DNA of 64,000 nucleotides from Spirochaetota bacterium (GTDB lineage Bacteria > Spirochaetota > UBA4802 > JAFGDQ01): the NCBI GenBank assembly GCA_034190085.1, contig JAXHTS010000019.1, positions 1 through 64,000 on the forward strand, given 5' to 3'. The notes beneath the pieces were generated by a model that did not search any database, had not been told where the DNA came from, and was given only the letters and a program-made list of their open reading frames with translations. The translations under genes and the position numbers were made by a program. Every line of letters starts with the position of its first letter. The first letter of the stretch is position 1. Shown piece after piece: positions 9,661 through 54,317 of this stretch.

Positions 9661-9753
9661 GATACATGGATCATGTGATTCTGGGTTGGGCATTTGGTTT
9701 TGTTCATAAAAATTTTCCTAAATAGGAAAAAATAGATTTGGATGGTGAAGGTT
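9661..9753 (+). repeat. Exporter leader repeat, copy 1
   Basis: Upstream region of the first HAE3 exporter. It shares a roughly 90-base sequence with 12173-12264 and 14689-14776, including the core TTGGGCATTYGGTTTTG and a following TTTTTCCTAAATAG-like tract. The hairpin arms here are TGGGCA (9687-9692) and TGTTCA (9701-9706); two G-U pairs replace the G-C pairs of the other copies, so the stem is still possible. Confidence 0.7.
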
Positions 9754-12165: not shown

Positions 12166-12172
12166 AAGCCCT

Positions 12173-12264
12173 GATACATGGATCATATGGATCTGGGTTG
12201 GGCATTCGGTTTTGCCCATAAATTTTTCCTAAATAGAAAAAAATTGATTTGGAGGGTGGAGGTT
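12173..12264 (+). repeat. Exporter leader repeat, copy 2
   Basis: Begins GATACATGGATCAT as copy 1 does and runs to the second exporter's start. A perfect 6-base stem TGGGCA (12199-12204) and TGCCCA (12213-12218) surrounds an 8-base loop, followed by an AT tract and the ribosome binding site GGAGG. Confidence 0.7.
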
Positions 12265-14643
12265 ATGAATAATACAAATAATTATTTTTCACGAGTAAAT
12301 GATCTATTCGCCGGATTAGCAGAATGGATAATTGATCATCGCAAGTTCGTAATCATTGTATGTGGCATTATAGGTGTGATGGGTATCGTATTATCGCTTC
12401 GTATTAAGATAGACAATTCCATGGATGTTTATTTCCGGCAAAATGATCCAACTTATGTAGATTATCAAAATTTTATAGAAGAGTATGGCAATGACCAATT
12501 CATATATATAGTATATAGAGTCAAACAGGGAATCTTTGACCTGGATGCATTACATAAAACTAAAATGTTAGTAAAGGATCTTGAGAAAGTTCCATTTGTA
12601 GAAAAAGTAAATGCAGTCACAAATATTGAAATTATTGAAGGCAATAAAAATGGCGCTATAAATGTTTATGGCCTCATGGATGATTTCCCTTCAAACCAGA
12701 GTGAGGCACATCCTCTTATGCAGAAGCTTCTTGATAAACCGTTGTATGTGAATGGATATATTTCTGATGATGCGAGTTATGCGGCTATACTATGTGAGGT
12801 GAAGGATAAACCAAAGGATGACCAAAATTACCAGATGAAGATATTTTCCGGTTTAAAAAATGTGCTATCAAAACAGGAATACAAGGAATTCGAATTCTGG
12901 CCGGTTGGGGAGCCTATTGTTGCCTCTGAGTGGAATGTTATACGGGAAAAAGATACTTTAGTACTATCTGTGCTTGTCTTTGTAGCAATTGCTATACTCC
13001 TTATTCTATTCTTCCGTCAGGCCAAGGGTGTTATTGGACCTCTTGCTGTAGTGTCATTTTCAACGGTTTTGGTTTTTGGTTTTATGGGTATAAACAGTTT
13101 CTCTTTCACAGGTGTAAGTGTTGTAATATCACCTTTATTGCTTTCTATTGGAGTGGCAACCACTGTTCATTTTATCAATAAATATCAGTTTCATCTTCGT
13201 TCAGGATTGAGCAATCGAACATCAATTATTGAAGCAGTAAGAATGGTAGCGATTCCTTGCTTTTTTACCTCCATAACAACAGCCATAGGATTCGGTTCAA
13301 TGATCATCTCTCCAATCCCTGCTATTAGTGAGTATGGATCTTATCTTGTATTTGGGCTGTTAGTAATATTTTTTCTTTCTGTTACAATTCTATTAGTGAT
13401 TCTCTCCTTTTCAGGGGAGAAGACTGAGATGAAATATATAAATTATAATGTAAAAACAAAAAGCAATGGTTTTATTGATTCTCTGCTAAAGCGAATCGGG
13501 TATTTGAACAGAAGTTATTCACGTTTAATTTTAATAATAGCGTCAATAATAGGTGTTATTTCTATATACGGGATAACCAGACTTCAGATAAACGCATCTA
13601 TGCTTGAGCAATTAGGCGACAGCTTGCAAGTAACTCACGACTATGAGTTTGTAGACAAAACAATGGCTGGGACAGGTAGTTTTGAAATTGTGCTGGATTC
13701 AAATAAGCTGGATGGTGTAAAGACACAAAAATTTGTTCAAATCCTTGAGAGTATCCAAAAATTTGCCCTTACTCAGGATTATCTTGTGAGGAAGACTAGT
13801 TCAGTAGTTGACATCATAAAAGAAGTTAATAGCTCTTTGCACAATAATGATAAGGCATTTTACAGGATTCCCTCTTCAGATGATGAGGTTTCTCAGTACA
13901 TTTTGCTCTATGAGATTTCAGGAGGGGAGGAATTGGAGAAACTTGTATCAGCAGATTTAGCTGCAGCAAGGCTGACTATTTATGTAAAATCTACTGACTC
14001 CATTATCGCCAAGCGTTTTTATGATGAGATAGTAAACTATATTGAGTCAGTAAAACCAGATGATTATTCCTACAGAATAACTGGATTCTCATATCTGATG
14101 GTTGAAATGATGGATTATGTAGGAAGGTCCCAAAGACAGTCCCTTTTGCTTGCTCTGATAATCATCTCAGCACTGATGATATTAATTTTTCGTTCAGTAA
14201 AGATGGGACTTATATCCATGATTCCGAATATATTCCCAACTTTTTTTATTCTGGGTTTCATGGGAGCATCTGGCATAATACTAGATCATGCCAGATCAAT
14301 GCTTGCCCCTATAGCCATTGGGCTTGCGGTTGATGATACAATACATTTAATATATCGTTATCAGCTTGAATTCAAGCGTCTTGGTCGTTATGAGAAGGCG
14401 CTTGATGCTGCATTAAGTAGTGTTGGTCGTGCTATATTGATAACTACTATTATTTTAGTTTTAGGCTTTTTTATAATGATGGTTTCTGAAATGAATAATA
14501 TCTCTTATTTCGGCATGTTATCAGGAATATGCATCTTCATTGCTTTACTTTCAGACTACTTCATAGCTCCATCACTAATACTACTCTTCAAACCCTTCGG
14601 AAAAGAATTCGACCCAGAAGAAAAAACAGCTATAGGCACATAA
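12265..14643 (+). CDS. HAE3/MMPL-type RND-superfamily exporter, copy 2
   Basis: A 792-residue paralogue of its upstream neighbour, with the same motifs in the same places: KIDNSMDVYF, EEYGNDQFIYIVYR, SSVVDIIKEVNSSLHNN, EISGGEELEKLVSADLA, and IGLAVDDTIHLIYRYQLEF in the last membrane block. The ATG at 12265 has GGAGG five bases away; the longer open frame upstream only reads the leader repeat. Its coding region stops early: the bases after the stop (14644-14676) still match the coding end of copy 1 (PDKEYDLTAG), so a point change has shortened the tail by about a dozen residues. Likely inner-membrane export, same module as the LolA-like and barrel proteins downstream. Confidence 0.88.
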   Translation: MNNTNNYFSRVNDLFAGLAEWIIDHRKFVIIVCGIIGVMGIVLSLRIKIDNSMDVYFRQNDPTYVDYQNFIEEYGNDQFIYIVYRVKQGIFDLDALHKTKMLVKDLEKVPFVEKVNAVTNIEIIEGNKNGAINVYGLMDDFPSNQSEAHPLMQKLLDKPLYVNGYISDDASYAAILCEVKDKPKDDQNYQMKIFSGLKNVLSKQEYKEFEFWPVGEPIVASEWNVIREKDTLVLSVLVFVAIAILLILFFRQAKGVIGPLAVVSFSTVLVFGFMGINSFSFTGVSVVISPLLLSIGVATTVHFINKYQFHLRSGLSNRTSIIEAVRMVAIPCFFTSITTAIGFGSMIISPIPAISEYGSYLVFGLLVIFFLSVTILLVILSFSGEKTEMKYINYNVKTKSNGFIDSLLKRIGYLNRSYSRLILIIASIIGVISIYGITRLQINASMLEQLGDSLQVTHDYEFVDKTMAGTGSFEIVLDSNKLDGVKTQKFVQILESIQKFALTQDYLVRKTSSVVDIIKEVNSSLHNNDKAFYRIPSSDDEVSQYILLYEISGGEELEKLVSADLAAARLTIYVKSTDSIIAKRFYDEIVNYIESVKPDDYSYRITGFSYLMVEMMDYVGRSQRQSLLLALIIISALMILIFRSVKMGLISMIPNIFPTFFILGFMGASGIILDHARSMLAPIAIGLAVDDTIHLIYRYQLEFKRLGRYEKALDAALSSVGRAILITTIILVLGFFIMMVSEMNNISYFGMLSGICIFIALLSDYFIAPSLILLFKPFGKEFDPEEKTAIGT

Positions 14644-14688
14644 GACAAAGAGTATGATTTGACCGCAGGATAAATATGAAACTCATGA

Positions 14689-14776
14689 GATATGAATTTG
14701 TGATTCTTGGTTGGGCATTCGGTTTTGCCCATAAATTTTTTCTAAATAGAAAAAATTGATTTAAAGGGTGGAGGTG
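14689..14776 (+). repeat. Exporter leader repeat, copy 3
   Basis: Third copy of the leader, with stem TGGGCA (14712-14717) and TGCCCA (14726-14731), the same loop, the AT tract and GGTGGAGGTG before the ATG. Together the three copies show that the duplicated unit comprised leader plus gene. Confidence 0.7.
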
Positions 14777-17186
14777 ATGAATAGAAAGGATAACTTCGTA
14801 ACGAAAATTAACGACAGGTTCGCTGATTTAGCAGAAAGGGTAATTGATCATCGCTGGGTAGTATTCTTTATATGTCTCACCTTATTCATTGGACTAACTG
14901 TTTTATCCTTAAAGCAACGGATAGATACCTCCATGGAGGTATGGTTCCTGGATGGTGACCCATCCTTTAATTATTATCATAACTTTGTGAGAGAATTCGG
15001 CAATGACGAATTTATATATATAGTGTATAGAACAAAACAAGGAATATTTAATCTCGACTCTTTAAGCAAAACGAAAAGGTTAGTGGAAGATCTTGAGGAA
15101 ATCCCATACGTGGAAAAGGTAAATGCTATCACCAATATAGAACTAACAGAAGGTAGCGTGAATGGGGATTTAAATGTTTACAGCTTAATGAATGAGTTCC
15201 CTTCCAGTCAAGTGGAGGCAAATTCACTTATGCACAAGATTATGGATAAACCGTTGTATGTGAATTCCTATATCTCTGAAGATTCAAACTTTGCGGCTAT
15301 CCTTTGTGAGTTGGAGAATAAAGCAAAGGATGATCCTACTTACAACGTGAATATTGCAACCAGTTTGGAGAGGATACTATCGAAACTGGATTATGAAGAT
15401 TTTAGATTCTGGCCAGTGGGTGAGCCTATTAGCAATTTTGAATTTTATAAAATTGTAATAAAGGATGGGATTATTATTAATACTATTGCCTATTTCTTGA
15501 TTTTTTTACTCCTCGTTCTTTTTTTTCGCCAGGCGAAGGTGATTGGAGGCATATTCTTAGTTACGATATTTTCGCTAGTTTTTGTTGTTGGTATCATGAA
15601 AATAATAGATTTTCCAATAACGGCTTTGTCTGTTATAACTCCATCTCTTATACTTGCGATTGGAGTGGCAACTAGTATTCATTTAATAACTGAGTATCAT
15701 TCACATGTTAAATCTGGATATACAAATCGAACATCTATCATAAAAGCGGTAAGTATGGTTGGATTTCCCTGTTTGTTTACTTCACTAACAACCGCAGTAG
15801 GCTTCGCTTCTGTAACTATCTCTCCTATAAGTATCCTTCGCGAGTATGGGTGGTCTATTGTAGTTGGTGTTTTAGTTGTCTTTGTTTTTTCCTTCTCAAT
15901 TCTATTGGTGATTTTAACATTTAAAAAGGAAAAAACTGGAAGAAAGTTTAATGGAGGGAAGGTAAACAAAGGAAATGGATTAATAGATTGGATGCTGCCG
16001 AGAATAGCCTCCCTTAATAAAAGATACTACATTAGAATATTAATAATTAGTGCTATTGTAAGTATTATTTGCAGTTATGGCATAACTAAGCTTCAGGTAA
16101 ACTCATCCTGGCTGGGAAAATTTGGAGACAGGACGAAGGTGTATCACGACTTCAAATTTGTAGATAAAACAATGGCTGTATCGGCTAGTTTCGAAATTTC
16201 ACTCGACTCAAAAAAGGCTGATGGCGTTAGGACTTATCAATTTGTTAAAACACTTGAGCAGATTCAGAACTTTGCAGAATCTAAGGACTATTTAGTAAAG
16301 AAGACTGTCTCAGTAGTAGACATAATTAGAGATGTAAACCGCTCTTTGCATAATAATGACATTGAATATTATAGATTGCCCTCTTCGGATAGGGAGGTTT
16401 CTCAGTACATATTGCTCTACGAGATATCAGGTGGGGAGGAACTGGAGAAACTTGTTTCAGCAGATTTAGCCACAGCAAGACTTACAATTTACATAAAATC
16501 TACTGATTCAATAACCTCCCGAGGCTTCTATGATGAGCTGGTTAATTTTATTGAGTCAGTTAAGCCGGCTGATTACGATTATAGAATAACCGGATTATCT
16601 TTTTTATTACTAGAAGCTATGCGATATATTGCAGATAATCAAATAAAATCCATTATGCTGGCATTTGTCATTATCTCATTAATGATGGTAATTGTATTCC
16701 GTTCAATAAAAGTAGGTCTAATCTCTATGCTACCAAACTTGTTCCCAATTGTTATTACCCTGGGATTCATGGGTTTATCTGGGATATGGTTAGACTTCGG
16801 GAGGTCATTGCTCGCTCCAATTGCCATTGGGCTTGCAGTTGATGATACTATCCATGTTATATCCCGGTATCGTCTTGAATTCTTTCGTATAGGGAATTAT
16901 GAAAAAGCGCTGGATGTGGCGATGAATGAAGTAGGCCGCGCTATCACCATTACTACTTATTCTATTTGTTGCCTTTATCTCTAATATGCTATCTGATATG
17001 AATGATCTATACTACTTCGGCATGTTAATATCAATGTGCATTTCTCTTGCCCTGCTTGCGGACTACTTCATAGCGCCATCATTGATTCTGCTCTTCAAGC
17101 CCTTTGGAAAAGAATTTAACCCGAACGAAAAGGTGGAAATAGATTCTCCAGATAAAAGAAATGGGTTAGCCATAGAAAGATTGTAA
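14777..17186 (+). pseudogene. HAE3/MMPL-type exporter, copy 3, frameshifted
   Basis: Third tandem paralogue, starting MNRKDNF at 14777 behind GGAGG. It is homologous to the other two throughout, including IGLAVDDTIHVISRYRLEF. Near 16951-16962, after GRAITIT, the frame breaks and ends at 16984. The true continuation lies in another frame and includes the SDMNDLYYFGML and LILLFKPFGKEF blocks, ending at 17186. Compared with copy 2 the change equals a net loss of two bases. The last two membrane helices are therefore uncoupled, and the protein would probably not fold fully. A sequencing error cannot be excluded, since the remainder is well preserved. Confidence 0.75.
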
Positions 17187-21536: not shown

Positions 21537-24356
21537 TTACTCCACTTTAATACTATACAAATGGCTCTCCATTACAAGCTCAAACCTGTTTTTTTCAGCA
21601 AAGCTAAAGGAAGTGGCTTTCTTATAGATTTCCAGATCAAGAGCTGTAAGATCAACATCTGTGACATAATAATTATAGCCCTTTACACTATCCATATAAA
21701 CCAACATGTCTTTAGCAACTTTACTAGTATCTGATCTTTTGAATGGACTAGTCTCTCCCCCATAGGGTAGGGAGAAGCGATATCCAATCTCTCGGTCGTC
21801 CAATATCTCCAAAGATATCCTAAAGGGCATAATCATTTTTTCAAGTTCAAAGATATTCTTTTCAAGTTCTGGCTTTTTCTCAGTTATGCTACATTTATTT
21901 CTCACATCCCTTACAAGTTCATAGATCTCAATGTTTTTATCCACCCTGCCTAGCGAAGAATTAGGATTATTTTTTACTACCTGAGATATAACATTTTTGG
22001 AAAAAATATATAATCGAGTCAGATAGTCAATAAAACGATCTGAGTTCTCTCTATAAAAAATTATTGAACCCTGTTCATCTGAGACAAAGAAATAGCAATA
22101 TTTTCTCTCCTTTTGGTAATATATTTGAATGGTATCTTCTTTATAATTATCAATAATTAACCTTAAGTAGTTCAATTCTGGATGTCTGGGATCAATATGT
22201 ATTATATTTTTTCTTCCAATAATATTGGAAAGGCTGTAAAGCATCTTTAGCTCAGAATCATATACATTGCTGATAATCTTATCCTTGCCCTTTAATTTTC
22301 TAAAGGAGAATACAGTATAATTGTTGCCAAGTATTGTAATATATCTCTTTTCAGGCCACTCTTCAAATTTACGACTAATAAAAAGATCATAGGTTTCTTT
22401 AAAAAGGGATTTGATCCCCTTGAATGATTTGCTTGATTTATACGGAGATGGTGAGGTAAGCCATACACATCTTTCAAAATCATCCCTGTTATTCAGAGCA
22501 CCGTTTAATAATTTTACAAGAATATTCGAAATATCTATCTCATTATTATATTTTTCATAAATCGTTTCACCCCAGCTATTATGATATAGATAAAAAATAT
22601 CATCTATTCCTTTAGGATATTTTGAGTATAGATTTATTATTATAAAATTCAACAGGGGAAAGGGATCATCAAAAAAATACTTGTTCTGTATATTCAGCCT
22701 TTTGATTGAAAAATGCAGTGTTAACTCATTCATAAGCTCCCTTACGAAACCTGAATCAAGTAAATGATACCTGGACTTTATATCCACCCTTGAATAGTCT
22801 TTTTGAAACATACGATTCATGCTTATCCAAGCAAGAAGTGCAATAAGGGCCGGCTCCTTGTGAATAATTAACCTCTCAGAACCTCCCTTGCCTGACTTGA
22901 ATCCCTTGGATAACAACCAACTTACCTCGCCACCCTCCTTATTAATGGATTCGATTATGAGATTCTTCTCAATTGGATTATCCTTAAAGCTAACAGCCTG
23001 TCTGATCTTATTGCCAGATAATGAAAAACTGGAATGTATCTTTCTGGTAATAAATTTTATTTCTTCGTTTGAAAACTTTTGGGATAGCTTCTGGCTCTCT
23101 ATATTGCTTAGTATCCTTTTGTAGCTATTGAGAATCTGTTTTGTTATATTATTCCAGAATTTATTAATAGGCGTTATGTCCCAGTTCCTGAAGTTATCCA
23201 TCTGTTCAATTTTCGATTTTGACCACTGCCAACTTCTAACATATTCTGACATCTTTATTATCTTTTGCGATTTTTTATCATGAGGATTCGATGAAGAATA
23301 TTTTGAAAGATAAGGATCAATCTTAATATAAAAACACATTCTTAAAATCTCTGAAGACATCATTAAGTTATTATCATTAATATTTTTTGTATAATAATCA
23401 TGTACTTGGTTGAACATGAGTATGTATGGGTCAATATGATTCATATCAAGTTTAACATTCTGTACATTTTGCTTAATGATGTTACATAGCAAGGGATTTT
23501 CACCATCCTCATCAGAGAGATATCTTTCCATAATGCCAATTTTTATTATTGATTTAAAGGGATTCCCCAATGATTTAAGTATCTGGAAAATACCACCCCC
23601 AAGGAAATCCCCTTTATCTATATGATATAGATTTCCAAAATCAACATAATCCTTATTGAATTCCAATTCATCTAATACTTTGAGGTATTTATAATAGACT
23701 TTATCGTCAATTCCACTAGGCACTACCCACCAGAATGGTATCTTCCCACTAAGAAGGATTGAGCTTCTATAAAACTCGTCCTTTAACAATTTACCATTGG
23801 CTTTTCCGGAAAAACTATCTTCACTGGTATCAAACAAATCACTCCTAATTTTTGTAATATCATTCAAATAAAAATGGGTTTCAATATTAAAGTTCTCAGT
23901 TATCCATAGTTCAATTTCCCTTAACTTATTCATCAAGGAATTGATGTTTTGCAAACCAACCCTGTTTTCATCCAGGCAAATCCAGAAATCGATATCTGAT
24001 TCTTCGTTATACGCAATGCTGCCGGCGCTTCCCATGATTGCAAAAACCTCAATAAGTGGATTATTATTATCAGCGTTTGTGATGTGGACAGTTGGAAACC
24101 ATGTTCTAATAAAATGTAAGGCCCTTTCAGTAGGCGTATATCCATAAATACCAAGTGGTTCGAAGTTATTCACATACCCTGGTAGTCCTAATTGATTATC
24201 TCCTATTAGAATAGGCAAGGCATCTATTAGGTCTATTATACTTTTGTTTGAAATAGAGGAGGTGAACTTTTGCAGTCTAGTAATGTTATATTTCTGAAAG
24301 TTTTTCTTATTTTTCGATATTTCATTTTTATACTTGAGTATATCTTCCTGGTTCAT
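21537..24356 (-). CDS. cyaA: Class I adenylate cyclase
   Basis: A 939-residue protein making cyclic AMP from ATP, longer than the enterobacterial enzyme (about 850). The N-terminal half aligns with CyaA: GYTPTERALHFIRTWFP, then the nucleotidyltransferase core MGSAGSIAYNEESDIDFW (residues about 108-125) with the metal-binding Asp pair, LREIELWITENFNIETHFYL, DEFYRSSILLSGKIPFW, DFGNLYHI, ILKSLGNPFKSIIKI, DPYILMFNQV and SWQWSKSKIEQMDNFRNW. The C-terminal 450 residues match less clearly and probably regulate it. No Crp-type regulator is in the window. No good ribosome binding site precedes the ATG. Confidence 0.9.
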   Translation of the reverse strand: MNQEDILKYKNEISKNKKNFQKYNITRLQKFTSSISNKSIIDLIDALPILIGDNQLGLPGYVNNFEPLGIYGYTPTERALHFIRTWFPTVHITNADNNNPLIEVFAIMGSAGSIAYNEESDIDFWICLDENRVGLQNINSLMNKLREIELWITENFNIETHFYLNDITKIRSDLFDTSEDSFSGKANGKLLKDEFYRSSILLSGKIPFWWVVPSGIDDKVYYKYLKVLDELEFNKDYVDFGNLYHIDKGDFLGGGIFQILKSLGNPFKSIIKIGIMERYLSDEDGENPLLCNIIKQNVQNVKLDMNHIDPYILMFNQVHDYYTKNINDNNLMMSSEILRMCFYIKIDPYLSKYSSSNPHDKKSQKIIKMSEYVRSWQWSKSKIEQMDNFRNWDITPINKFWNNITKQILNSYKRILSNIESQKLSQKFSNEEIKFITRKIHSSFSLSGNKIRQAVSFKDNPIEKNLIIESINKEGGEVSWLLSKGFKSGKGGSERLIIHKEPALIALLAWISMNRMFQKDYSRVDIKSRYHLLDSGFVRELMNELTLHFSIKRLNIQNKYFFDDPFPLLNFIIINLYSKYPKGIDDIFYLYHNSWGETIYEKYNNEIDISNILVKLLNGALNNRDDFERCVWLTSPSPYKSSKSFKGIKSLFKETYDLFISRKFEEWPEKRYITILGNNYTVFSFRKLKGKDKIISNVYDSELKMLYSLSNIIGRKNIIHIDPRHPELNYLRLIIDNYKEDTIQIYYQKERKYCYFFVSDEQGSIIFYRENSDRFIDYLTRLYIFSKNVISQVVKNNPNSSLGRVDKNIEIYELVRDVRNKCSITEKKPELEKNIFELEKMIMPFRISLEILDDREIGYRFSLPYGGETSPFKRSDTSKVAKDMLVYMDSVKGYNYYVTDVDLTALDLEIYKKATSFSFAEKNRFELVMESHLYSIKVE

Positions 24357-35875: not shown

Positions 35876-37264
35876 ATGAGTAAAAAACATTCATTTGCTT
35901 TAGTATTATTAATAGGATTCCTGTTTTATTGGACATTTTCGTCTTATACAGTGAAGAGATGCTTAGCAGATAGCCTGATCTCACTGTCGAGTCACACCCA
36001 GGTCCGTTATGATTCCAAATATCTTTCAGATGATGAGGGTGAGGATCATAAACTACACCAGACAGCTGATTTAAATATTGTTGAAAAAAAATGGGGCCAT
36101 TTACGATTTGCATTCTCAGGAGATATGGTTGAAGATATTGATGATATTGATGATAGTACAATTGATAGAACTAGATCTATTCACGATACATGGAGCTGCT
36201 CTAATCATGGTTACCTATATCTTTGTCAAGCTGAGATATACAGATTGGGACATCTGAATTATGCCAGATTTGGGAGACAGTATGTATCTCATGAACTGAC
36301 AACACATATTGACGGGATGAATCTATTACTGAATCTTAGTATATCTGATATAGAGATCAATCCCTTTGTCTATGGTGGAATTCCTGTTAGATTATATCAA
36401 GAAGCAGAATATTGGGACGCTTCTGAGGCCGGGGGTGGTGCTCATATTGTCTTAAATAAATCGACAAAATTAACACTCGAACATCAGTATATAAAAGAAA
36501 CCCCGGATATTGACATAATTGGAACATATAGTGAGAGTGGAGAAAGCGAATATCATCAGTCCGCTGTTGCATTGAGAAGATCATTATTTGACAATGGCTA
36601 TGGTTATGCAACCTTTGTGATGCTTGACAACTGCCCCAAATATGTTAATTCAAGGTTTTCTTTTTTATTCGATAAGATGGACCTTGAGATAGATGCTTCT
36701 TACTTCTATCAGTTCAGTAAATTAAGCGATAATATTCCAACAACAATTTCACCTTTTTCAGGTTTAATAGGGGAGATTAAACCCTATCATAATGCTACAA
36801 TAGATATAATGAAGGGGATATATAAGGATAATATTTTCATCTCCTGTGGTACGGAGATTAGATTGCTCGATTATGATGAGGATGAGACTGACTTTAATCA
36901 TTCATACAATCACGAATATTTAGCTGTAATAATTGATAATCTGCCTATAAAGGGTATGCATCTCTCAACACAGGCTGATTTCTGGAAGGTTATGGATAAC
37001 AATGATCAGGATACAATTATTAGTTGCAGTCTGGAAGTTGGATATACAAAACCTCGTTCTTTAGATTTTTTAGTCGGTTCCTACTATTCACTTTATAAAT
37101 ATGATTATTTTTCAAATTTGGATGAGAAGACTGATGTTTATACTGTTTATTCAAAGGCTCGTTATTATATTGTAGACGGATTATACTTTGATGCGAGTTA
37201 TGAATTAGAGAGTTACGATATATACGAGCATAGATTTACTGCAATCCTTGGACACGAAATTTAG
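35876..37264 (+). CDS. Outer-membrane beta-barrel protein, partner of the multihaem cytochrome
   Basis: A 462-residue exported protein: signal peptide with cleavage probably near residue 31 (RCLADS), then repeated amphipathic strands with aromatic girdle residues and acidic loops (for example SDDEGEDHK and VEDIDDIDD), ending EHRFTAILGHEI. It has no haem motifs. I recognise no named family, but length and strand pattern fit a barrel of around twenty strands. The cytochrome gene starts ten bases after its stop. By analogy with porin-cytochrome conduits, the barrel could sheath the cytochrome across the outer membrane. Confidence 0.65.
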   Translation: MSKKHSFALVLLIGFLFYWTFSSYTVKRCLADSLISLSSHTQVRYDSKYLSDDEGEDHKLHQTADLNIVEKKWGHLRFAFSGDMVEDIDDIDDSTIDRTRSIHDTWSCSNHGYLYLCQAEIYRLGHLNYARFGRQYVSHELTTHIDGMNLLLNLSISDIEINPFVYGGIPVRLYQEAEYWDASEAGGGAHIVLNKSTKLTLEHQYIKETPDIDIIGTYSESGESEYHQSAVALRRSLFDNGYGYATFVMLDNCPKYVNSRFSFLFDKMDLEIDASYFYQFSKLSDNIPTTISPFSGLIGEIKPYHNATIDIMKGIYKDNIFISCGTEIRLLDYDEDETDFNHSYNHEYLAVIIDNLPIKGMHLSTQADFWKVMDNNDQDTIISCSLEVGYTKPRSLDFLVGSYYSLYKYDYFSNLDEKTDVYTVYSKARYYIVDGLYFDASYELESYDIYEHRFTAILGHEI

Positions 37265-37274
37265 GAGGGGATAG

Positions 37275-38114
37275 ATGTCAAGATCAGGTCATATAGCACT
37301 TATTATTGGAATTCCAACGCTCTTATCTATCATATTGTTTTTTTCGATTTCCTCTTATGGTGGTAGCGGAACTGACTTCCCTCATGATGCCCACTTAGAG
37401 GATATTGAATGTATTGGTTGTCATAAGACTGCCCAGGAAGAGGATAAACCCGGTTTTCCAGATAAAGAGGTCTGTACCGACTGTCATGATGATACAGAGG
37501 GCGTTGATCTATCAGGTCTTCCAACACGTCCGCTATATCTTAACGCCCGATTTCCTCATGGATCCCACTCAGACGTAGAGTGTAAGGAATGCCATGGGGA
37601 TCTCGCAGAGGAGGAGCCAAAGATTATGGGTGTGGATGAATGCCTTAAGTGTCATGAAGAGAATGAATTGGAATTATCGTGCAAGGATTGCCATGGACAG
37701 GACAGATTCTTCCCTTCATATCACAAGCTTGCTGGGAAATGGAAGAAGCGGCATGGACTCAGGGTTAAGACAATTATGAAAAGTGATCATGCATATGACT
37801 GTGGCGTATGTCATACTGATGATGCCTGTAGAAAATGTCATCAATTTAGTCGTCCACAGGATCATACAGGCTTTTGGAAAATCCGAGGACATGGTATAAG
37901 GGCTTTGGCTAAGCGGGAGTCCTGTTCCAATTGTCATAATGAGGTTTTTTGTATCAGATGTCATAAGAATAAAAAGCCATTGAACCATCGAGGTAATTGG
38001 GTAAATCTTCATGGGAAAACAATACCAGGTGGACATGCTGGAAATACAAACAGATGTAATGTATGCCACCTTCCTGAGCCTTATTGTGGAATTCGCTGTC
38101 ATACGACAAAATAG
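37275..38114 (+). CDS. Eleven-haem c-type cytochrome
   Basis: A 279-residue exported multihaem cytochrome. After an N-terminal membrane/signal segment there are ten CXXCH sites: CIGCH, CTDCH, CKECH, CLKCH, CKDCH, CGVCH, CRKCH, CSNCH, CIRCH, CNVCH. An eleventh near the C-terminus is the unusual CGIRCH (CX3CH). Further histidines (FPHDAH, FPHGSH, HGIRAL, NLHGK) can serve as distal ligands. Haem density is about one per 25 residues, as in wire-like cytochromes. AGGAGGGG precedes the ATG. Cotranscribed with the barrel protein, it is a candidate periplasm-to-surface electron carrier. No CXXCH cytochrome or quinol oxidase lies nearby. Confidence 0.92.
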   Translation: MSRSGHIALIIGIPTLLSIILFFSISSYGGSGTDFPHDAHLEDIECIGCHKTAQEEDKPGFPDKEVCTDCHDDTEGVDLSGLPTRPLYLNARFPHGSHSDVECKECHGDLAEEEPKIMGVDECLKCHEENELELSCKDCHGQDRFFPSYHKLAGKWKKRHGLRVKTIMKSDHAYDCGVCHTDDACRKCHQFSRPQDHTGFWKIRGHGIRALAKRESCSNCHNEVFCIRCHKNKKPLNHRGNWVNLHGKTIPGGHAGNTNRCNVCHLPEPYCGIRCHTTK

Positions 38115-38255: not shown

Positions 38256-38276
38256 TTTCCCGCCTTTGGCGGGAAA
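38256..38276 (+). terminator. Hairpin terminator after the cytochrome
   Basis: TTTCCCGCC and GGCGGGAAA form a perfect nine-pair stem with a TTT loop, between the converging cytochrome gene and the B12-binding gene. T-rich sequence (TTGTTTATTT) follows on the plus strand; the symmetric stem could serve both directions. Confidence 0.7.
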
Positions 38277-47015: not shown

Positions 47016-49460
47016 ATGTTAGGATTAAAACAATATATTGATGATAGTATATTTAGAAGACTTGAAAAAAAGAGGATATATTCATTATTAGTAATTGTTT
47101 TATTTAGTCTTTTATCAATAGGATGGAAATGTGGCAGCAATGGTGGTTTTGGTGATATTGAATTAATTCCACCTGCACCACCAAGCAATCCTCAGGCCAT
47201 ATCAAAATCTTCAACTCAGATAGATGTTAATTGGTCTGATAATTCTGATAATGAGGATGGATTTACCATTGAGAAGGCATTAGATGTAGGCGGTATTCCT
47301 GGAACATTCGTAGAGATCGCTTCTGTCTCGGCAGGCATGGATGTCTACTCGGATGATAATTTAAATCCTGTAACAACTTACTATTATCGTGTTAGAGCAT
47401 ACAATAATGTTGGCAAATCAGATTGCTCTGATGAAGTATGTGCAACAACTTCTGATACACCTCCAGATACACCTCCAGATACACCTCCAGATACACCTCC
47501 AGATACACCTCCAATAACTGAAGCTGACTACTATGTGAATCAAAATCATCCTCAAGCTAATGACAGTAATCCAGGTACTGAGGAGCTTCCTTTTAAAACA
47601 ATTTCAGCAGCGCTATCGCAAGCAACTGCAGGGAATATGGTATTGGTAAGAGCAGGTACATACCGAGAAAGTATTACTCTGCCCTCCGGCAATAGCGAAA
47701 ATCCCTTCACCCTTGTGGGTGCTCCAGGAGAGAGAGTGATTGTCTCTGGTATGGAAAAAGTATCAGGATGGACTCAATATTCAGGAAATATATGGAGTGC
47801 ACCATTTAGTGGAGATGTTGAATATATTTATGTTGATGGAAATAGACAGGAAATTGCGCGTGAACCCAATGATGGCTGGTGGACTATTGAAAATAAAGAA
47901 GGTAATGATATTCTTGATTCTGTTAATCTTGATGGCTCTTTCCCTGATGTTGCTGGGGGAGAGGTTATGATTAAAATATATCAAAATAATGAAGAGGATA
48001 GGGTTGGTATTGTTTCCTCAAGTTTAGGTAGGTTGAATTTAGGGAGTTCTAGTAGTTTTAGCTCTGATGATAAATATTGGGTGCAGGATGATTTTGATTT
48101 GATTGATAGGGAAGGTGAATGGGTAAGTCAAGGGGGAGATATCTATTTTTGGCCTGGAACCGGGGTTGATCTTGAAAATGATGTTGAGGCTTCCGGGGGA
48201 ACTGGTTCTGTGATAACTGTCAGCGGTGTCAGCAATGTTATAATTGATGGGATTGAGGTTAGAGGAGGAGTAGTAAGCGGAGGGATAATTATTTCATCTT
48301 CAAACGATGTGACAGTTAGGAATTGTGTTATTCATAATAATGTTATGAGACTCGGTTCTCCTCACTCCACTGGAATTGAAGTTGTTTCGTCCGAACAAAT
48401 ATATATTCTTAATAATTTTATTACACAAAATTGGTTTGGAATCTTATTTGATAATGTCAAGGATAGTATAATAAGAGAAAATGAAATTGCTTATAATGAT
48501 GATGATGGAATTAGGTTAACTTATATGTCTGATAATATTATTGTTGAGCGAAATTATATTCACCATCACATGATGTGGGGGCATCCTGATAACATACAGG
48601 TTTATAGTGGTAATGATAATAATACAGAGATTTTTACACATAATCTTTTAATTATTGATAATTTAATATTAGGAGGAGCGCAAAATGTATTTACGGAGGA
48701 TACCTCTGAGAATTCGTTAAATGGAAATATGATTATTGGAAGTAGTTCATATTCTGTAGTGTTTGGACATGACAATGTTCATGATTTTAATGTTTTGGGA
48801 AATACAATAGCATTTTCCAGGTATGGTTGCCTGCGTTTTACTTATGAAGATTACGATGCATATGAAAATGTGCTTATGAGAGGAGGTTCAGGCCCGCCAT
48901 GTGCTTTAGAATCTGATGCTGACTATTTAGCTGATAGAAATTTGTTTTATAATAGTGAAGGTTCTTATCCAGGTGTTTATAATTGGAGCCAGACTCTAGC
49001 AGAGTTCCAAGCTAGCACTGGTCAGGATATGAATTCAGTTTTTGCAGATCCAGTATTTATAAACGCGCCTATTTATTTTGGTGTCGTTGATCATGTTGAC
49101 ATAGCAAGATGCACAAAAAGTATTATTTATATTGCAGATGATCGAATAAGTGGATTTAATCAAGGGGATTTGATTGAAATAGATTTTGATGGGATTCCAA
49201 GGACTATTATAGATATATCCGGGGATGCGCTAGAATTTGAACCTGCGCTTGATAAAAAACCTGTTGTGTATCTTTTAGTCGCAAATTGGGGAGGTAATAA
49301 CAATTTTCAGTGGGATTTGAGATTACAGGGCAGCAGTCCAGGAGCGGCTTTAGCATCAGACGGTGGTCCAGTGGGTTCTACAATAGATATTCAGGAATAT
49401 AAGGCTGGTGACTTTAATGGTGATGGGCAAAGAGATATTCCTTTATCCCCATTTAATTGA
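47016..49460 (+). CDS. Fibronectin III plus right-handed beta-helix surface protein 1
   Basis: An 814-residue exported protein, possibly a lipoprotein (hydrophobic segment ending at Cys near residue 40). Residues about 55-150 form a fibronectin type III domain; a DTPP linker follows; residues 175-245 are DUF1565-like (NPGTEELPFKTISAALSQA, VRAGTYRESI). A long parallel beta-helix spans about 400-690, with many N-x-I/V turns and the motif HHHMMWGHPDNIQV. The end has DFNGDGQRDIP, a dockerin/EF-hand-like calcium loop. The helix could bind, cleave or epimerise a polysaccharide, as in pectate lyase or AlgG-like folds; the reaction is unknown. GGGAG precedes the ATG. Confidence 0.75.
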   Translation: MLGLKQYIDDSIFRRLEKKRIYSLLVIVLFSLLSIGWKCGSNGGFGDIELIPPAPPSNPQAISKSSTQIDVNWSDNSDNEDGFTIEKALDVGGIPGTFVEIASVSAGMDVYSDDNLNPVTTYYYRVRAYNNVGKSDCSDEVCATTSDTPPDTPPDTPPDTPPDTPPITEADYYVNQNHPQANDSNPGTEELPFKTISAALSQATAGNMVLVRAGTYRESITLPSGNSENPFTLVGAPGERVIVSGMEKVSGWTQYSGNIWSAPFSGDVEYIYVDGNRQEIAREPNDGWWTIENKEGNDILDSVNLDGSFPDVAGGEVMIKIYQNNEEDRVGIVSSSLGRLNLGSSSSFSSDDKYWVQDDFDLIDREGEWVSQGGDIYFWPGTGVDLENDVEASGGTGSVITVSGVSNVIIDGIEVRGGVVSGGIIISSSNDVTVRNCVIHNNVMRLGSPHSTGIEVVSSEQIYILNNFITQNWFGILFDNVKDSIIRENEIAYNDDDGIRLTYMSDNIIVERNYIHHHMMWGHPDNIQVYSGNDNNTEIFTHNLLIIDNLILGGAQNVFTEDTSENSLNGNMIIGSSSYSVVFGHDNVHDFNVLGNTIAFSRYGCLRFTYEDYDAYENVLMRGGSGPPCALESDADYLADRNLFYNSEGSYPGVYNWSQTLAEFQASTGQDMNSVFADPVFINAPIYFGVVDHVDIARCTKSIIYIADDRISGFNQGDLIEIDFDGIPRTIIDISGDALEFEPALDKKPVVYLLVANWGGNNNFQWDLRLQGSSPGAALASDGGPVGSTIDIQEYKAGDFNGDGQRDIPLSPFN
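47454..47513 (+). repeat. Five in-frame copies of a 12-base unit
   Basis: GATACACCTCCA is repeated five times without error, encoding five DTPP units that link the fibronectin domain to the beta-helix. The paralogue carries two copies at 50139-50162. Perfect 12-base units can change number by slippage without breaking the frame. Confidence 0.9.
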
Positions 49461-49577
49461 TATTAAATTGGTATATTAAGGTATTGTTTTTGGAGGAAAG
49501 TATAAGTTATATATTGATCATCATTTACTCCTGATAAAAAGATTTGATAAATAGATGATTATATATAATAGAAGAAA

Positions 49578-49640
49578 CTCAAGCTGCTACTTGAGGACGG
49601 GGTTTAGGGTTAGCCCAAATTGATATTCAGAGTCATTGTT
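49578..49640 (+). ncRNA. Structured leader of beta-helix gene 2
   Basis: CTCAAG (49578-49583) pairs with CTTGAG (49590-49595), then GGGGTTTAGGGTTAGCCC and TTGATATTCAGAGTCAT follow. The conserved part matches the leader of gene 1, while the hairpin has a different sequence with the pairing kept. Confidence 0.4.
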
Positions 49641-49703
49641 CAGTATAATGTTATATGTCAATTATTAAAACCCTTTTAAAATTTCTTAAAAGGGAGAAGA
49701 AGT

Positions 49704-51674
49704 ATGAGAAATAGAATAGAGGAGAAGATTAGTTTATCTTATGATATATTAAAAAGAAAGAGTATTCATTTACTTCTCATTATTATATTTAGTCTTTCAT
49801 CAATAGGTTGGATATGTAGCGGCAATAGCGGTTCTGGTGATATTGAATTATATCCTCCTGAGCCGCCAAGTAATCCACAAGCATTATCAATTTCTTCAAG
49901 TAGGGTAGATATTACTTGGAATGATAATTCAAATAATGAGGTTGGGTTTACACTTGAGAGGGCTTTGGATAATGGAGGTAATCCTGGAATTTTTAGTGAT
50001 ATTGCTAATGTATCAGCTAATATCGATTTTTACTCTGATATAAATCTATCTGCTGAAGCAACATACTATTATCGTGTAAAAGCATACAATAATGCAGGAA
50101 TATCAGTCTGTTATGATATTGCAAGTGCAACAACTTCTGATACACCTCCAGATACACCTCCAGTGCCTGAAGTTGATTACTATGTGAACCAGAATCATCC
50201 TGAAGCCGATGACAGTAATCCAGGTACTGAAGATTTACCATTTCGTACAATTTCAGCTGCCCTATCTCAGTCAACTGCTGGAGATTTGGTATTAGTTAAA
50301 GCTGGCACATATGATGAAGCTCTCACCATACCATCTGGAGATTCAGGAAACGATTTTACACTAATGGGAGCACCTGACGAGAGAATCATTGTATCAATAG
50401 CTCAAAATCCTATTATTAACTGTAATAATGTAAAGAATGTATGCATTGAAGGCTTTGAGATTTCAGGAGCTTCAGGAAATGGAATCAATATTTCTGACTC
50501 TGATAATATAGTCATAAAAAAATGTGCAATATACGACAACAGTGGTGATTTGAGGGCAGGGATCAATATAAATAGTTCTACAAATGTAACTATTTCACAA
50601 AATTTTATATGCCGAAATTGGTATGGTATATCAATGAGTTATGCTACTGGTGTGACAATAGAGAAGAATGATATTGGTTATAATATAGATGACGGCATGA
50701 GGATAACATGGAATTCAAACGATATCACTGTTAAGCAGAATTATATACATCATCATATGATATGGGATGAAGATAATTCTTATGACATTCATCCTGATAA
50801 TATTCAGATATTTCGATACGTTAATAACATTTCTTTTATAGAAAATTTGCTCATTGGAGCTGGACAAAACATAATGATGGAACAGATATGGGATGGAGAA
50901 ATAATAAGAAATACTATTATTGGCAGTATTTCATATTCTGTAGTCTTTGGCCATAGTTATGCTCGTGATTTTATTATTAGTGAAAATACTATAACCTTTT
51001 CCCGTTATGGTTCTTTCCTTATCACGGATAATGGTTATGATGTTTATGAGAATGTTCTTATGAATGGACACCAGGATACAGCAATCAAATTTGAGAGTAA
51101 TCTTGATGGATACAACGCTGATCGAAATCTCTTCTATAATTATGAGAATCCTATTTCAGATGATATTATGTGGTTGAGTGCAGGTGGTGGATGGATGACT
51201 CTTGCGGAATTTCAAGATAACACTGCCCAGGATCTATCTTCGATTTATACTGATCCTGAATTCATAAATGCACCTGTTTATTATACTATAGTTGATATAA
51301 GCCAAGTGCGTAATTGCACACGAAGCACATTATACATATTGGATTTTGATACTCCAATGTTTAATGTGGGGGATATCATAGAGGTAAATTTTGATGGTAT
51401 ACCACGAACAGTAACTAATATTACATCTAATACTATTAATACTATTACATTTGAGCCTGAACTCGATGAACCTCCAATGTGGAATGCATTTATTATGAAT
51501 TGGAAGGATAATAGTAATCTTGTATGGGATTTGAGGTTACGAAATGGAAGTCCTGGCGAGAATTTAGCATCAGATGACGGACCTGTAGGTTCTACAATCA
51601 ATATCAATGAGTATATGAATGGTGATTTCGATGGTGATGGCATAAGGGATATTCCTATATCGCCATTCGATTAA
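49704..51674 (+). CDS. Fibronectin III plus right-handed beta-helix surface protein 2
   Basis: A 656-residue paralogue of its neighbour, with the same signal segment (SSIGWIC), fibronectin domain (PPSNPQALSISSSRVDITW), DTPP linker (two units), DUF1565-like part and beta-helix. It lacks about 130 residues between the DUF1565 part and the helix, including the AREPNDGWWT block kept by proteins 1 and 3. HHHMIW and HPDNIQI are split by an eight-residue insert. It ends DFDGDGIRDIPISPFD, again a calcium-loop pattern. GGGAG lies ten bases before the ATG. Confidence 0.75.
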   Translation: MRNRIEEKISLSYDILKRKSIHLLLIIIFSLSSIGWICSGNSGSGDIELYPPEPPSNPQALSISSSRVDITWNDNSNNEVGFTLERALDNGGNPGIFSDIANVSANIDFYSDINLSAEATYYYRVKAYNNAGISVCYDIASATTSDTPPDTPPVPEVDYYVNQNHPEADDSNPGTEDLPFRTISAALSQSTAGDLVLVKAGTYDEALTIPSGDSGNDFTLMGAPDERIIVSIAQNPIINCNNVKNVCIEGFEISGASGNGINISDSDNIVIKKCAIYDNSGDLRAGININSSTNVTISQNFICRNWYGISMSYATGVTIEKNDIGYNIDDGMRITWNSNDITVKQNYIHHHMIWDEDNSYDIHPDNIQIFRYVNNISFIENLLIGAGQNIMMEQIWDGEIIRNTIIGSISYSVVFGHSYARDFIISENTITFSRYGSFLITDNGYDVYENVLMNGHQDTAIKFESNLDGYNADRNLFYNYENPISDDIMWLSAGGGWMTLAEFQDNTAQDLSSIYTDPEFINAPVYYTIVDISQVRNCTRSTLYILDFDTPMFNVGDIIEVNFDGIPRTVTNITSNTINTITFEPELDEPPMWNAFIMNWKDNSNLVWDLRLRNGSPGENLASDDGPVGSTININEYMNGDFDGDGIRDIPISPFD

Positions 51675-51709
51675 TTTTAAGCATGAAGTATAAAGAAGAA
51701 TTACTTGGA

Positions 51710-51775
51710 ACTCCGGAATGTATATGCATATACTGGAGTACCACTAATTATCTAAAAGTTGGTTTAGGATTATAC
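51710..51775 (+). ncRNA. Possible third leader-like structure, or terminator
   Basis: Thirty-five bases after the second beta-helix gene, ACTCC (51710-51714) and an inner GTATAT pair with ATATAC and GGAGT (51735-51739), and GGTTTAGGATTATA follows, resembling the conserved leader stretch. No gene starts behind it in this orientation; 51776-51963 is empty. It may be a relic leader whose gene was lost, or simply a terminator. Confidence 0.25.
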
Positions 51776-51963
51776 TTTATGCAATAATGAATCTCTTGAA
51801 GTGATAAGCATCCATGGCGCTCCTGTAGATAAGTTGATTTCTATAATACTTGATGCTGATTACAGCCAATTACAGGCGATTATAGCAAGATATGGAAAAT
51901 AAAATATCATCAGAAGTAGTATTTGCAGTATTTGCAGTAGCGCCATCCAAAGGATTTTAATTG

Positions 51964-54048
51964 TTAACGGTGTAATTCTTTTGGAATTACGGGTACATCC
52001 CTCTTCCTGTCTCCATTGAAGTCTCTTCTCGTAAATGCCTGAATGTCAAGTGTGGATCCTATAGATCTTCCATTCCTACCGAGTTTAAAGGCAGGACTAT
52101 CTTTTCGTAGCCGTAAATCAAGTTTATAATTAGTATTATTCCCCCAATTCGCAACTAACCAACCCTTTGTCGGTTTTTGGGGCAAACCTGGATCTATTGT
52201 AATTGTATTTCTGTCAATTGAAATTATCCTACGGATGTTTCCATCAAAGTTTATTTCAACATTGTCACCCTTTTTAAATCCGGTAGTACCTTTACGTAAA
52301 TAGAACTTATTTCGTGAGCAGAGATGTAGCCTGTCCCCATCCAATACTCTAAAGGCTGCTGGAGCATTAATAAATTTTGGATCAGAATAAACTGAATTTT
52401 TATCCTGCCCCGTTACCTTTTGCAGTACCTTTAATGTCTTATCCCTTCTCCTACTAGAGATGAGAACGGATTTTTGCTTCAGTCCTTTTGCATTCCAGAA
52501 TAGATTTCTGTCAGCCTTATAGTCCTCGATTCCCAATACTGAGTACATAGGCCCTATGTGTCCTGTAACGAATATATTCTCACGTACATCATACCCTTTC
52601 CATGTCATATTCATGCAACCATAACCAGTAAAAGCTAGTGTGTTCTTGTGAATTTTATAGTCACCTGCATTATTGTGACCAAAAATTAACATATTAGCAT
52701 TAGAACCAATGATCATGTTGCCTCGCAGTTCTCCATTTGTAGTCTCTTCAAGCATTATAGATTGACCACCAGTAAGGATTAGATTCTTAATGAACTTTAT
52801 ATTCCTTACACCTCGAAAGACTTGAATGTTGTCCGGATGGCCCCATAGAAGATGATCATGCATGTAGTTATGTTTAACTATAATATTTTCTGATTTCCAG
52901 GATACACGCAAACCATCGTCAGAATTAAAACCAATATCATTCATTTCTATAACCACATCATTTGCGTAAGTTATTGAAATTCCAAATCGATTCCACCAGG
53001 ATACATTATTCATAATACAGATATTATTTGATTCTCGCACAAAGATACCCCTAAAGCCATTGTTGTGGAAGATGCACGATTTTATTTCCACATCCTTGGC
53101 ATTACTTATCTCAAGACCATTCCCAACACCTCCGCATATCTCAAGGCCCCAAAGGCGAAGATGATTTGCCTTATATATACTTACAACCTGGCCGGTTATT
53201 TTGGGGGCTTCAACTGCACTAAGGTCTTTTTTATTCTGTGGCCAGAAGTAGATATGGTATTTCCCATTTTTTTCTTTCGCAGACCATTCACCAGGTCTAT
53301 CTATGAGTGAAAAGTGATTTTTAAGGAAATACTTATCCCCTTTATTCATATTCATCCATTCACTTTTGCGAATAACCTTTAACCTTCCCTTAGCTTTGTC
53401 AAACTCTGTAATCGGTACTGAAAAGAATGCATTACCATGTCGAGTCCATATATAGACTTCGCCGCCAATAATATTTTTTTTCAGATTCGATAGGTGCTCA
53501 GGATCAAATAGTTCCATGCCTTTTACAGAGGCTGCTGTCCACCACCCTTCGTTTGGTTCACGAGCAATTGATTGTGGTTTATAATTAACATAAAGTCTTT
53601 CCGGTCGCCAATTAATAGAGGTTACATAGATGTTGCCCTTATACCTTTTCCATCCCTTTAGCTTTTTCATTCCACTTATTATAACCCGATCACCTGGAGC
53701 ACTCATAAGGGTTATAAGTTGCTTCGGTCTGCCTGAGGGTAGTCTGATCGCTTCTCTATATATACCTGAGGTCACAACAATTGTGTTTCCGGGATTTGCT
53801 GCCTTTAGTGCAGCTCCAATTGTTGGGAATGGCCTCTTCTTGGTGCCATTAGGCCAATTTACATTCGAAATAGCCTTTACCCAGATAGCATTTGAGGGAA
53901 TCTTAGGTGTTAAGGATGTTTGTGATCGAGCTATATCTTTTGCTGAGACAAGACTTGGTGATAAGACTTTTGGGATGGGAGATATAGGATTTGAAATAAG
54001 ACACATACATAATACTAACATGTAAAATATATTATTCAGCCTCATCAT
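51964..54048 (-). CDS. Right-handed beta-helix exported protein 3
   Basis: About 694 residues, convergent with its two paralogues. A signal peptide is followed directly by the DUF1565-like part (KKRPFPTIGAALKAANPGN, VTSGIYREAI); there is no fibronectin domain. It keeps the AREPNEGWWT block, the beta-helix, HLLWGHPDNIQV and the C-terminal region (GSTLDIQAFTRRDFNGD, with RKRD closing the loop). It is much more basic than proteins 1 and 2, many acidic positions being Lys or Arg. GGAG lies six bases before the chosen ATG. Probable polysaccharide-active or binding protein; reaction unknown. Confidence 0.75.
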   Translation of the reverse strand: MMRLNNIFYMLVLCMCLISNPISPIPKVLSPSLVSAKDIARSQTSLTPKIPSNAIWVKAISNVNWPNGTKKRPFPTIGAALKAANPGNTIVVTSGIYREAIRLPSGRPKQLITLMSAPGDRVIISGMKKLKGWKRYKGNIYVTSINWRPERLYVNYKPQSIAREPNEGWWTAASVKGMELFDPEHLSNLKKNIIGGEVYIWTRHGNAFFSVPITEFDKAKGRLKVIRKSEWMNMNKGDKYFLKNHFSLIDRPGEWSAKEKNGKYHIYFWPQNKKDLSAVEAPKITGQVVSIYKANHLRLWGLEICGGVGNGLEISNAKDVEIKSCIFHNNGFRGIFVRESNNICIMNNVSWWNRFGISITYANDVVIEMNDIGFNSDDGLRVSWKSENIIVKHNYMHDHLLWGHPDNIQVFRGVRNIKFIKNLILTGGQSIMLEETTNGELRGNMIIGSNANMLIFGHNNAGDYKIHKNTLAFTGYGCMNMTWKGYDVRENIFVTGHIGPMYSVLGIEDYKADRNLFWNAKGLKQKSVLISSRRRDKTLKVLQKVTGQDKNSVYSDPKFINAPAAFRVLDGDRLHLCSRNKFYLRKGTTGFKKGDNVEINFDGNIRRIISIDRNTITIDPGLPQKPTKGWLVANWGNNTNYKLDLRLRKDSPAFKLGRNGRSIGSTLDIQAFTRRDFNGDRKRDVPVIPKELHR

Positions 54049-54317
54049 TATTATCTCCATATATTTTTTATATTAAGAAAGCAAATAATAATTTGCATAT
54101 ACATTTGGTAATGAAAAAGGTCAATTGTTTTTTATTTGTAGAGGATTGAGATTCGAATGGGAGATGATAAGATTATCGATAATAACATCGATTATATAAC
54201 AGATGAAAAGAGTAGTATATTTTGTTTCATGCAAAATAGTAATTAAATGTTGACATGATTATGTAGAAAGGGGATAATAATATCCATTCATTACAATTAT
54301 TAGTAAAAGAGGTAGGA

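Follow-up and report, generated by a model that had tools for sequence, protein, structure and literature searches.

Two adjacent genes in a 64-kb stretch of spirochaete DNA (the window, i.e., the whole stretch analysed) raise the question of whether they form a path for electrons across the outer membrane and, if so, whether this path is of a new kind. A first-pass annotation had described them as an exported barrel-type protein with an 11-haem cytochrome ten bases behind it, closed by a strong terminator. It had proposed an outer-membrane electron conduit outside the named conduit families, perhaps of a new two-part type with no third extracellular cytochrome, and had named gene pairing in other genomes as a check. 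The features of the locus are collected in Table 1.

Table 1. Features of the barrel–cytochrome locus, in window coordinates.
Feature	Position	Strand	Details and basis
Predicted outer-membrane beta-barrel (porin-like) component	35876..37264	+	462 aa, Sec-type signal sequence; ORF call
Barrel stop, AGGAGGGG ribosome-binding site and cytochrome start	37257..37277	+	sequence
11-haem c-type cytochrome, proposed barrel plug	37275..38114	+	279 aa; N-terminal signal/anchor without lipobox
N-terminal tetrahaem c7/c3-like part	37374..37673	+	motifs at residues 46, 67, 103 and 123; alignment
C-terminal heptahaem part, conserved core of the plug family	37674..38111	+	motifs at residues 136–271; alignment, invariant columns
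Hairpin terminator-like sequence	38256..38276	.	9-bp stem, usable from both strands

The first protein exhibits the strand pattern of a barrel. Alternating-hydrophobicity peaks number 19 in its family, against 8.3 ± 2.3 in shuffled sequences, a count equalled by none of 300 shuffles, and the count of amphipathic-strand peaks, approximately 18–23, is well over that of shuffles. In five soluble proteins of the window, the same test gave no consistent excess. Several homologues end in a C-terminal aromatic residue, typical of outer-membrane proteins. The open reading frame and its excess of beta-amphipathicity thus bear out the exported barrel-type protein of the first-pass annotation. AlphaFold2 models of the barrel (three sequences) reached a mean pLDDT of 29 and were unusable; for this reason, we only infer its insertion in the outer membrane, where it would span some 18–22 strands.

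The cytochrome gene follows after a 10-bp gap, and its AGGAGG-like ribosome-binding site overlaps the barrel stop. The protein contains 10 CxxCH motifs and one CxxxCH motif (CGIRCH), which use exactly its 22 cysteines and leave 13 further histidines free as possible distal ligands, whereas shuffled versions hold 0.15 CxxCH motifs on average and two at most (2000 shuffles). The spacing and haem count first described are therefore both accurate. No other open reading frame of the 64-kb window holds at least two CxxCH motifs. As in the case of the barrel, AlphaFold2 (three sequences, mean pLDDT 35) yielded an unusable model.

Standard searches place neither protein in a named conduit family, as the first-pass annotation had anticipated: no conduit model of Pfam or NCBIfam was matched. 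The barrel has no relevant match in Pfam (searched to E 10; best E 0.07, unrelated), and none in NCBIfam or in the PDB (phmmer, E up to 10). The cytochrome matches only general Pfam families (cytochrome C7/c3), with a partial match to an MtrC/F domain; in NCBIfam, it scores 21 bits against TIGR03508 (DmsE-type decahaem), whose cut-off is 192, and among solved structures phmmer finds only short c7/c3-like cytochromes. Rfam gave no match around the pair, and no barrel relatives were found in a scan of viral contigs. Since the family is missed by standard models, surveys based on such profiles would overlook conduits of this sort.

The strong terminator said to close the pair is real as a sequence feature. 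The 9-bp hairpin lies approximately 140 bp past the cytochrome stop, between the pair and convergent B12-binding/radical-SAM genes, and could act in both directions. The flanking radical-SAM gene is absent from the relatives, and its synteny is uninformative. Elsewhere, the window encodes three MMPL/RND-like transporters in tandem (9742–16984), the third of which (14768–16984) is shorter and seems curtailed at its C-terminal end, a class I adenylate cyclase on the minus strand (21537–24356; Pfam PF01295), and three big exported proteins of the right-handed beta-helix type, apparently mutually related (47016–54060).

Homologues of the barrel are concentrated outside the phylum of the host. Among 393 genomes of that phylum, only one other holds the barrel (G055, 21–25% identity). 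A search of a genome collection found it at approximately 60% identity in two cold-seep Desulfobacterales genomes, and it is present in 8 of 146 genomes around one cold-seep Desulfobacterales genome. The close homologues come from Desulfobacterales-type genomes (57–61% identity), and three further ones share 27–31%. Besides the window, a multihaem cytochrome directly follows the barrel at all eight family loci (L006, L007, and L040–L045), so the gene pairing holds at every homologous family locus checked; the same applies to the distant locus of G055 (L003). Behind each of the close barrel homologues, the three at 27–31% included, the adjoining gene encodes a homologue of the window cytochrome.

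The genes around this pair vary. In L043 and L045, the order is barrel, 11-haem cytochrome, and lipoprotein cytochrome, and in L044, barrel, 7-haem cytochrome, and lipoprotein cytochrome. In L006, L007, and L041, an outer-type cytochrome immediately precedes the barrel; it begins like a lipoprotein in L007 and L041, and in L006 the contig breaks off within it. Behind the barrel comes a short, 7-haem cytochrome without the N-terminal tetrahaem part, and this gene is incomplete at the edge of the contig in L007. The loci L040 and L042, both at contig ends, hold the barrel and a 7-haem cytochrome alone, and in G055 a small cytochrome, the barrel, a 7-haem lipoprotein, and another cytochrome follow each other. 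This variation suggests that what is conserved is the barrel–plug pair, and that its outer cytochromes can be exchanged, moved to another position, or encoded at unlinked sites. A truncated duplicate of the N-terminal part of the barrel, a decayed duplication, lies 5' of the outer cytochrome in L007 (161–559).

The plug itself exists in two forms. The 11-haem form is common to the window, L043, and L045, and the tetrahaem part is missing from the homologues of L006, L007, and L040–L042. In the tree, the window cytochrome is sister to the 7-haem group, and the tetrahaem part was thus probably lost in that group.

A wider search with a nine-member barrel profile retrieved 13 more Desulfobacterota genomes (E 8e-4 to 2e-11), with multihaem cytochromes beside all matches. 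Two arrangements stand out. Type A comprises the barrel, a 12-haem cytochrome, a 1-haem protein, and a 7-haem protein of 1000–1200 residues; this cluster, for which we know of no name, recurs in Desulfobacterota (L063, L064, L065, L067, L068, L069, L070, and L075). Type B (L072, L073, and L074) comprises the barrel, an 8-haem cytochrome of approximately 230 residues, and a lipoprotein with 9–12 haems; L073 has two barrel genes whose sequences start identically. The type B layout is that of the published ombB-omaB-omcB/ombC-omaC-omcC arrangement (PMC4245776; PMC6148476), and its OmbB-like identity is based on gene order and haem counts, with no named reference sequence. The barrel in the OmbB position and the cytochrome in the OmaB position of L074 matched nothing among solved structures (phmmer).

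Profile comparison with HHalign connects the family barrel to type A at 97.5% and to type B at 96.3% (the latter over 282 columns), whereas four unrelated controls, all outer-membrane or exported proteins, reach no more than 3%. When the narrow family of five sequences was used alone, the values for the distant barrels were 51% and 25%; because the signal falls without more diverse members, we count this link as remote. The cytochromes align at 99.9% with type A (254 columns) and at 98% with type B, scores inflated by the CxxCH repeats; cytochrome similarity by itself is weak evidence, as CxxCH-rich proteins align easily. In the tree, which carries long-branch warnings, types A and B group together, apart from the present family. 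The remote relationship to OmbB-type barrels speaks for shared ancestry among several Pcc groups.

These comparisons bear on whether any electrons would cross the membrane here. An ordinary porin could be co-expressed with a soluble periplasmic multihaem carrier, with no transmembrane electron transfer, a reading to which the similarity of the tetrahaem part to periplasmic c7/c3 carriers and the unusable structural models of insertion lend something. The strict pairing in all the homologues found, the outer lipoprotein cytochromes adjoining most of them, and the distant relationship of barrel and cytochrome to their Pcc counterparts nevertheless make this very unlikely. The same lines of evidence, i.e., invariable pairing, remote homology of both proteins, and adjacent outer lipoprotein cytochromes in relatives, make the outer-membrane conduit proposed in the first-pass annotation a well-supported prediction.

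As the closest homologues belong to Desulfobacterales-type genomes and none was found in spirochaetes of the same order, the contig might be suspected of being mis-binned Desulfobacterota DNA. FlaA, the family of the outer layer of the flagellar filament, is regarded as specific to spirochaetes. It has three matches in the genome of the window and is present in 18 of 18 related genomes, compared to none of 14 control genomes, which identifies the host as a spirochaete. The tetranucleotide composition of the window and the pair correlates at 0.92–0.98 with contigs of their own genome (0.98 for the contig carrying FlaA), but at only 0.34–0.68 with the Desulfobacterota loci, and mis-binning is for this reason extremely unlikely. 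Since hardly any relatives of this spirochaete have the pair, it was probably acquired from Desulfobacterota. A limited literature search found no porin–cytochrome conduit reported for spirochaetes, and the present pair points to a spirochaete lineage that may exchange electrons with its surroundings. Genome-wide, approximately 550 CxxCH-coding sites are present, compared to approximately 95 for the reversed control pattern.

Within the window, as the first-pass annotation stated, no third extracellular cytochrome is encoded; the genome, however, holds on contig C55 a homologue 69% identical to the upstream outer cytochrome of L007. C55, C17, and C23 encode more lipoprotein cytochromes, in which the N-terminal repeat of that protein recurs. 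Five predicted outer lipoprotein-type cytochromes with 12–20 CxxCH motifs lie on these contigs (L021 6639–10515 on C55, L022 6345–10441 on C17, and L023 5386–7981 on C23); they carry tandem NPxxCxACHGxDLxGGxxxxSCxxCHH units and could be the outer partners of the conduit. Naming the family after the Ext type was weighed and set aside: the only match, of an unlinked outer cytochrome to ExtN, was sub-threshold. The C55-type cytochrome is matched by one of 44 relatives of the same order, and weakly, a distribution nearly equal to that of the barrel, which was not found in the genomes of the order searched. Core pair and outer cytochrome may thus have been acquired jointly and then separated, or acquired at separate sites, and the cytochromes of C55, C17, and C23 would be the partners of the pair.

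Alternatively, the 11-haem plug could itself reach the surface, making a self-sufficient two-part conduit with no need of an outer cytochrome. The same has been proposed for PioAB/MtoAB and for the Pcc of Anaeromyxobacter and Kuenenia, the window lacks any other multihaem gene, and its plug exceeds in length the 7-haem ones of relatives with a linked outer cytochrome. According to Shi et al., additional haems offset an absent outer cytochrome (PMC4245776). However, L043 and L045 combine the same 11-haem plug with a linked outer lipoprotein cytochrome, and the C55 homologue in the same genome has a distribution near that of the barrel; we regard a self-sufficient plug as unlikely. The claim of a new two-part type is not supported, given that most homologous loci hold an outer cytochrome, that this genome encodes the C55 homologue, and that Pcc clusters without one, including the two-gene clusters of Anaeromyxobacter and Kuenenia, are already published (PMC4245776).

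Most likely, then, the pair makes up the membrane-spanning core of a Pcc-like electron conduit, whose outer partners would be unlinked cytochromes. The 462-aa protein would form an outer-membrane barrel into which the heptahaem C-terminal part of the exported cytochrome would insert, while its tetrahaem N-terminal part would reach into the periplasm, and the haem chain would thus cross the membrane. Electrons flowing through the pair would pass to or from lipoprotein cytochromes on the outer surface, which are linked in the relatives and encoded on C55, C17, and C23 here. Both the division of the plug into two domains and its placement inside the barrel are proposed by analogy with Pcc and Mtr systems.

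As for the direction of flow, electrons would most simply move outward, in the respiration of an extracellular acceptor. This option appears to fit best, because DsrA was not found in this 96%-complete genome, while an OmcS-like protein is encoded along with numerous outer multihaem cytochromes. The OmcS-like multihaem cytochrome is encoded on contig C40 (L024 713–1858) among several paired-CxxCH cytochromes, and its match to OmcS, a nanowire protein, is weak (E 1.3e-5). Sulfate reduction as the physiological setting is disfavoured, as no DsrA was found. The genome also holds a QrcABCD-like menaquinone reductase operon on contig C7 (L025 315–4999), identified by best matches that fall below the curated cut-offs. 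That the conduit chiefly takes up electrons from a partner or mineral, or serves a dedicated reductase, e.g., of selenite or tellurite, seems rather doubtful. The Qrc-like reductase would suit such a use, porin–cytochrome systems can be bidirectional (PMC8258643), and L006 and L007 belong to cold-seep Desulfobacterales, a group in which electron uptake is presumed for the partners of methane oxidisers (PMC10553843), but the missing DsrA, the many outer cytochromes, and the OmcS-like protein suggest export. The complete scenario, in which a distinct 4+7 Pcc lineage passed from Desulfobacterota to a spirochaete and works there with unlinked outer cytochromes in electron exchange with minerals or partner cells, is a tentative one, to which we give somewhat less than even credence.

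Among known systems, the closest are the Geobacter Pcc clusters of the OmbB-OmaB-OmcB type, where a porin-like outer-membrane protein is likewise followed by a multihaem plug cytochrome (PMC4245776; PMC6148476). Published Pcc clusters comprise two to nine genes, with barrels of 18–22 strands and plugs of 5–14 haems (PMC4245776), and both the 11 haems and the estimated strands of the window pair fall within these ranges. Both proteins show remote similarity to clusters that are Geobacter-like by gene order and haem count, and an outer lipoprotein cytochrome is present at most homologous loci. On the other hand, the barrel is strongly diverged (E of just 7e-4 to 5e-5 in profile searches), the plug carries 4+7 haems rather than eight, and no outer-cytochrome gene neighbours the pair, unlike in L006, L007, L041, L043, L044, and L045. 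The type A clusters (L063, L064, L065, L067, L069, L075, and others) share a barrel of approximately 470 residues and a 12-haem cytochrome, which is the nearest distant relative of the window plug; this cytochrome, however, usually has a lipobox, and the 1-haem and 7-haem (1000–1200 aa) proteins follow it.

In MtrCAB, PioAB, and MtoAB, a decahaem plug works similarly within a barrel, and two-part versions exist. NCBIfam includes an MtrB/PioB model; the window barrel has no match there, and its cytochrome lies far under the DmsE-type cut-off, which separates the pair from MtrAB, PioAB, and MtoAB. Barrels of the MtrB class are also larger, with 28 strands (PMC4245776). The ExtABCD and ExtEFG conduits of Geobacter sulfurreducens also join a barrel to periplasmic and lipoprotein multihaem cytochromes, and their reported haem layouts (12 + 5 + 12, or 5 + 12) differ from the 11 or 7 plus an outer cytochrome of the present family (PMC6148476). 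OetABI, OmcKL, and a third Seep-SRB1g conduit (LWX52_07950-07960), compared by description only, share the three-part logic and come from syntrophic seep sulfate reducers, related cold-seep Desulfobacterales (PMC10553843). Geobacter homologues of the third could not be identified (PMC10553843); it may belong to the barrel family of the window, in which case the family has already been noticed. By its predicted mechanism, the window pair fits the Pcc class, and by sequence it fits a separate, divergent lineage of it. The novelty lies in this lineage: its plug carries 11 haems (4+7), its outer cytochromes seem exchangeable, and it is present in a spirochaete.
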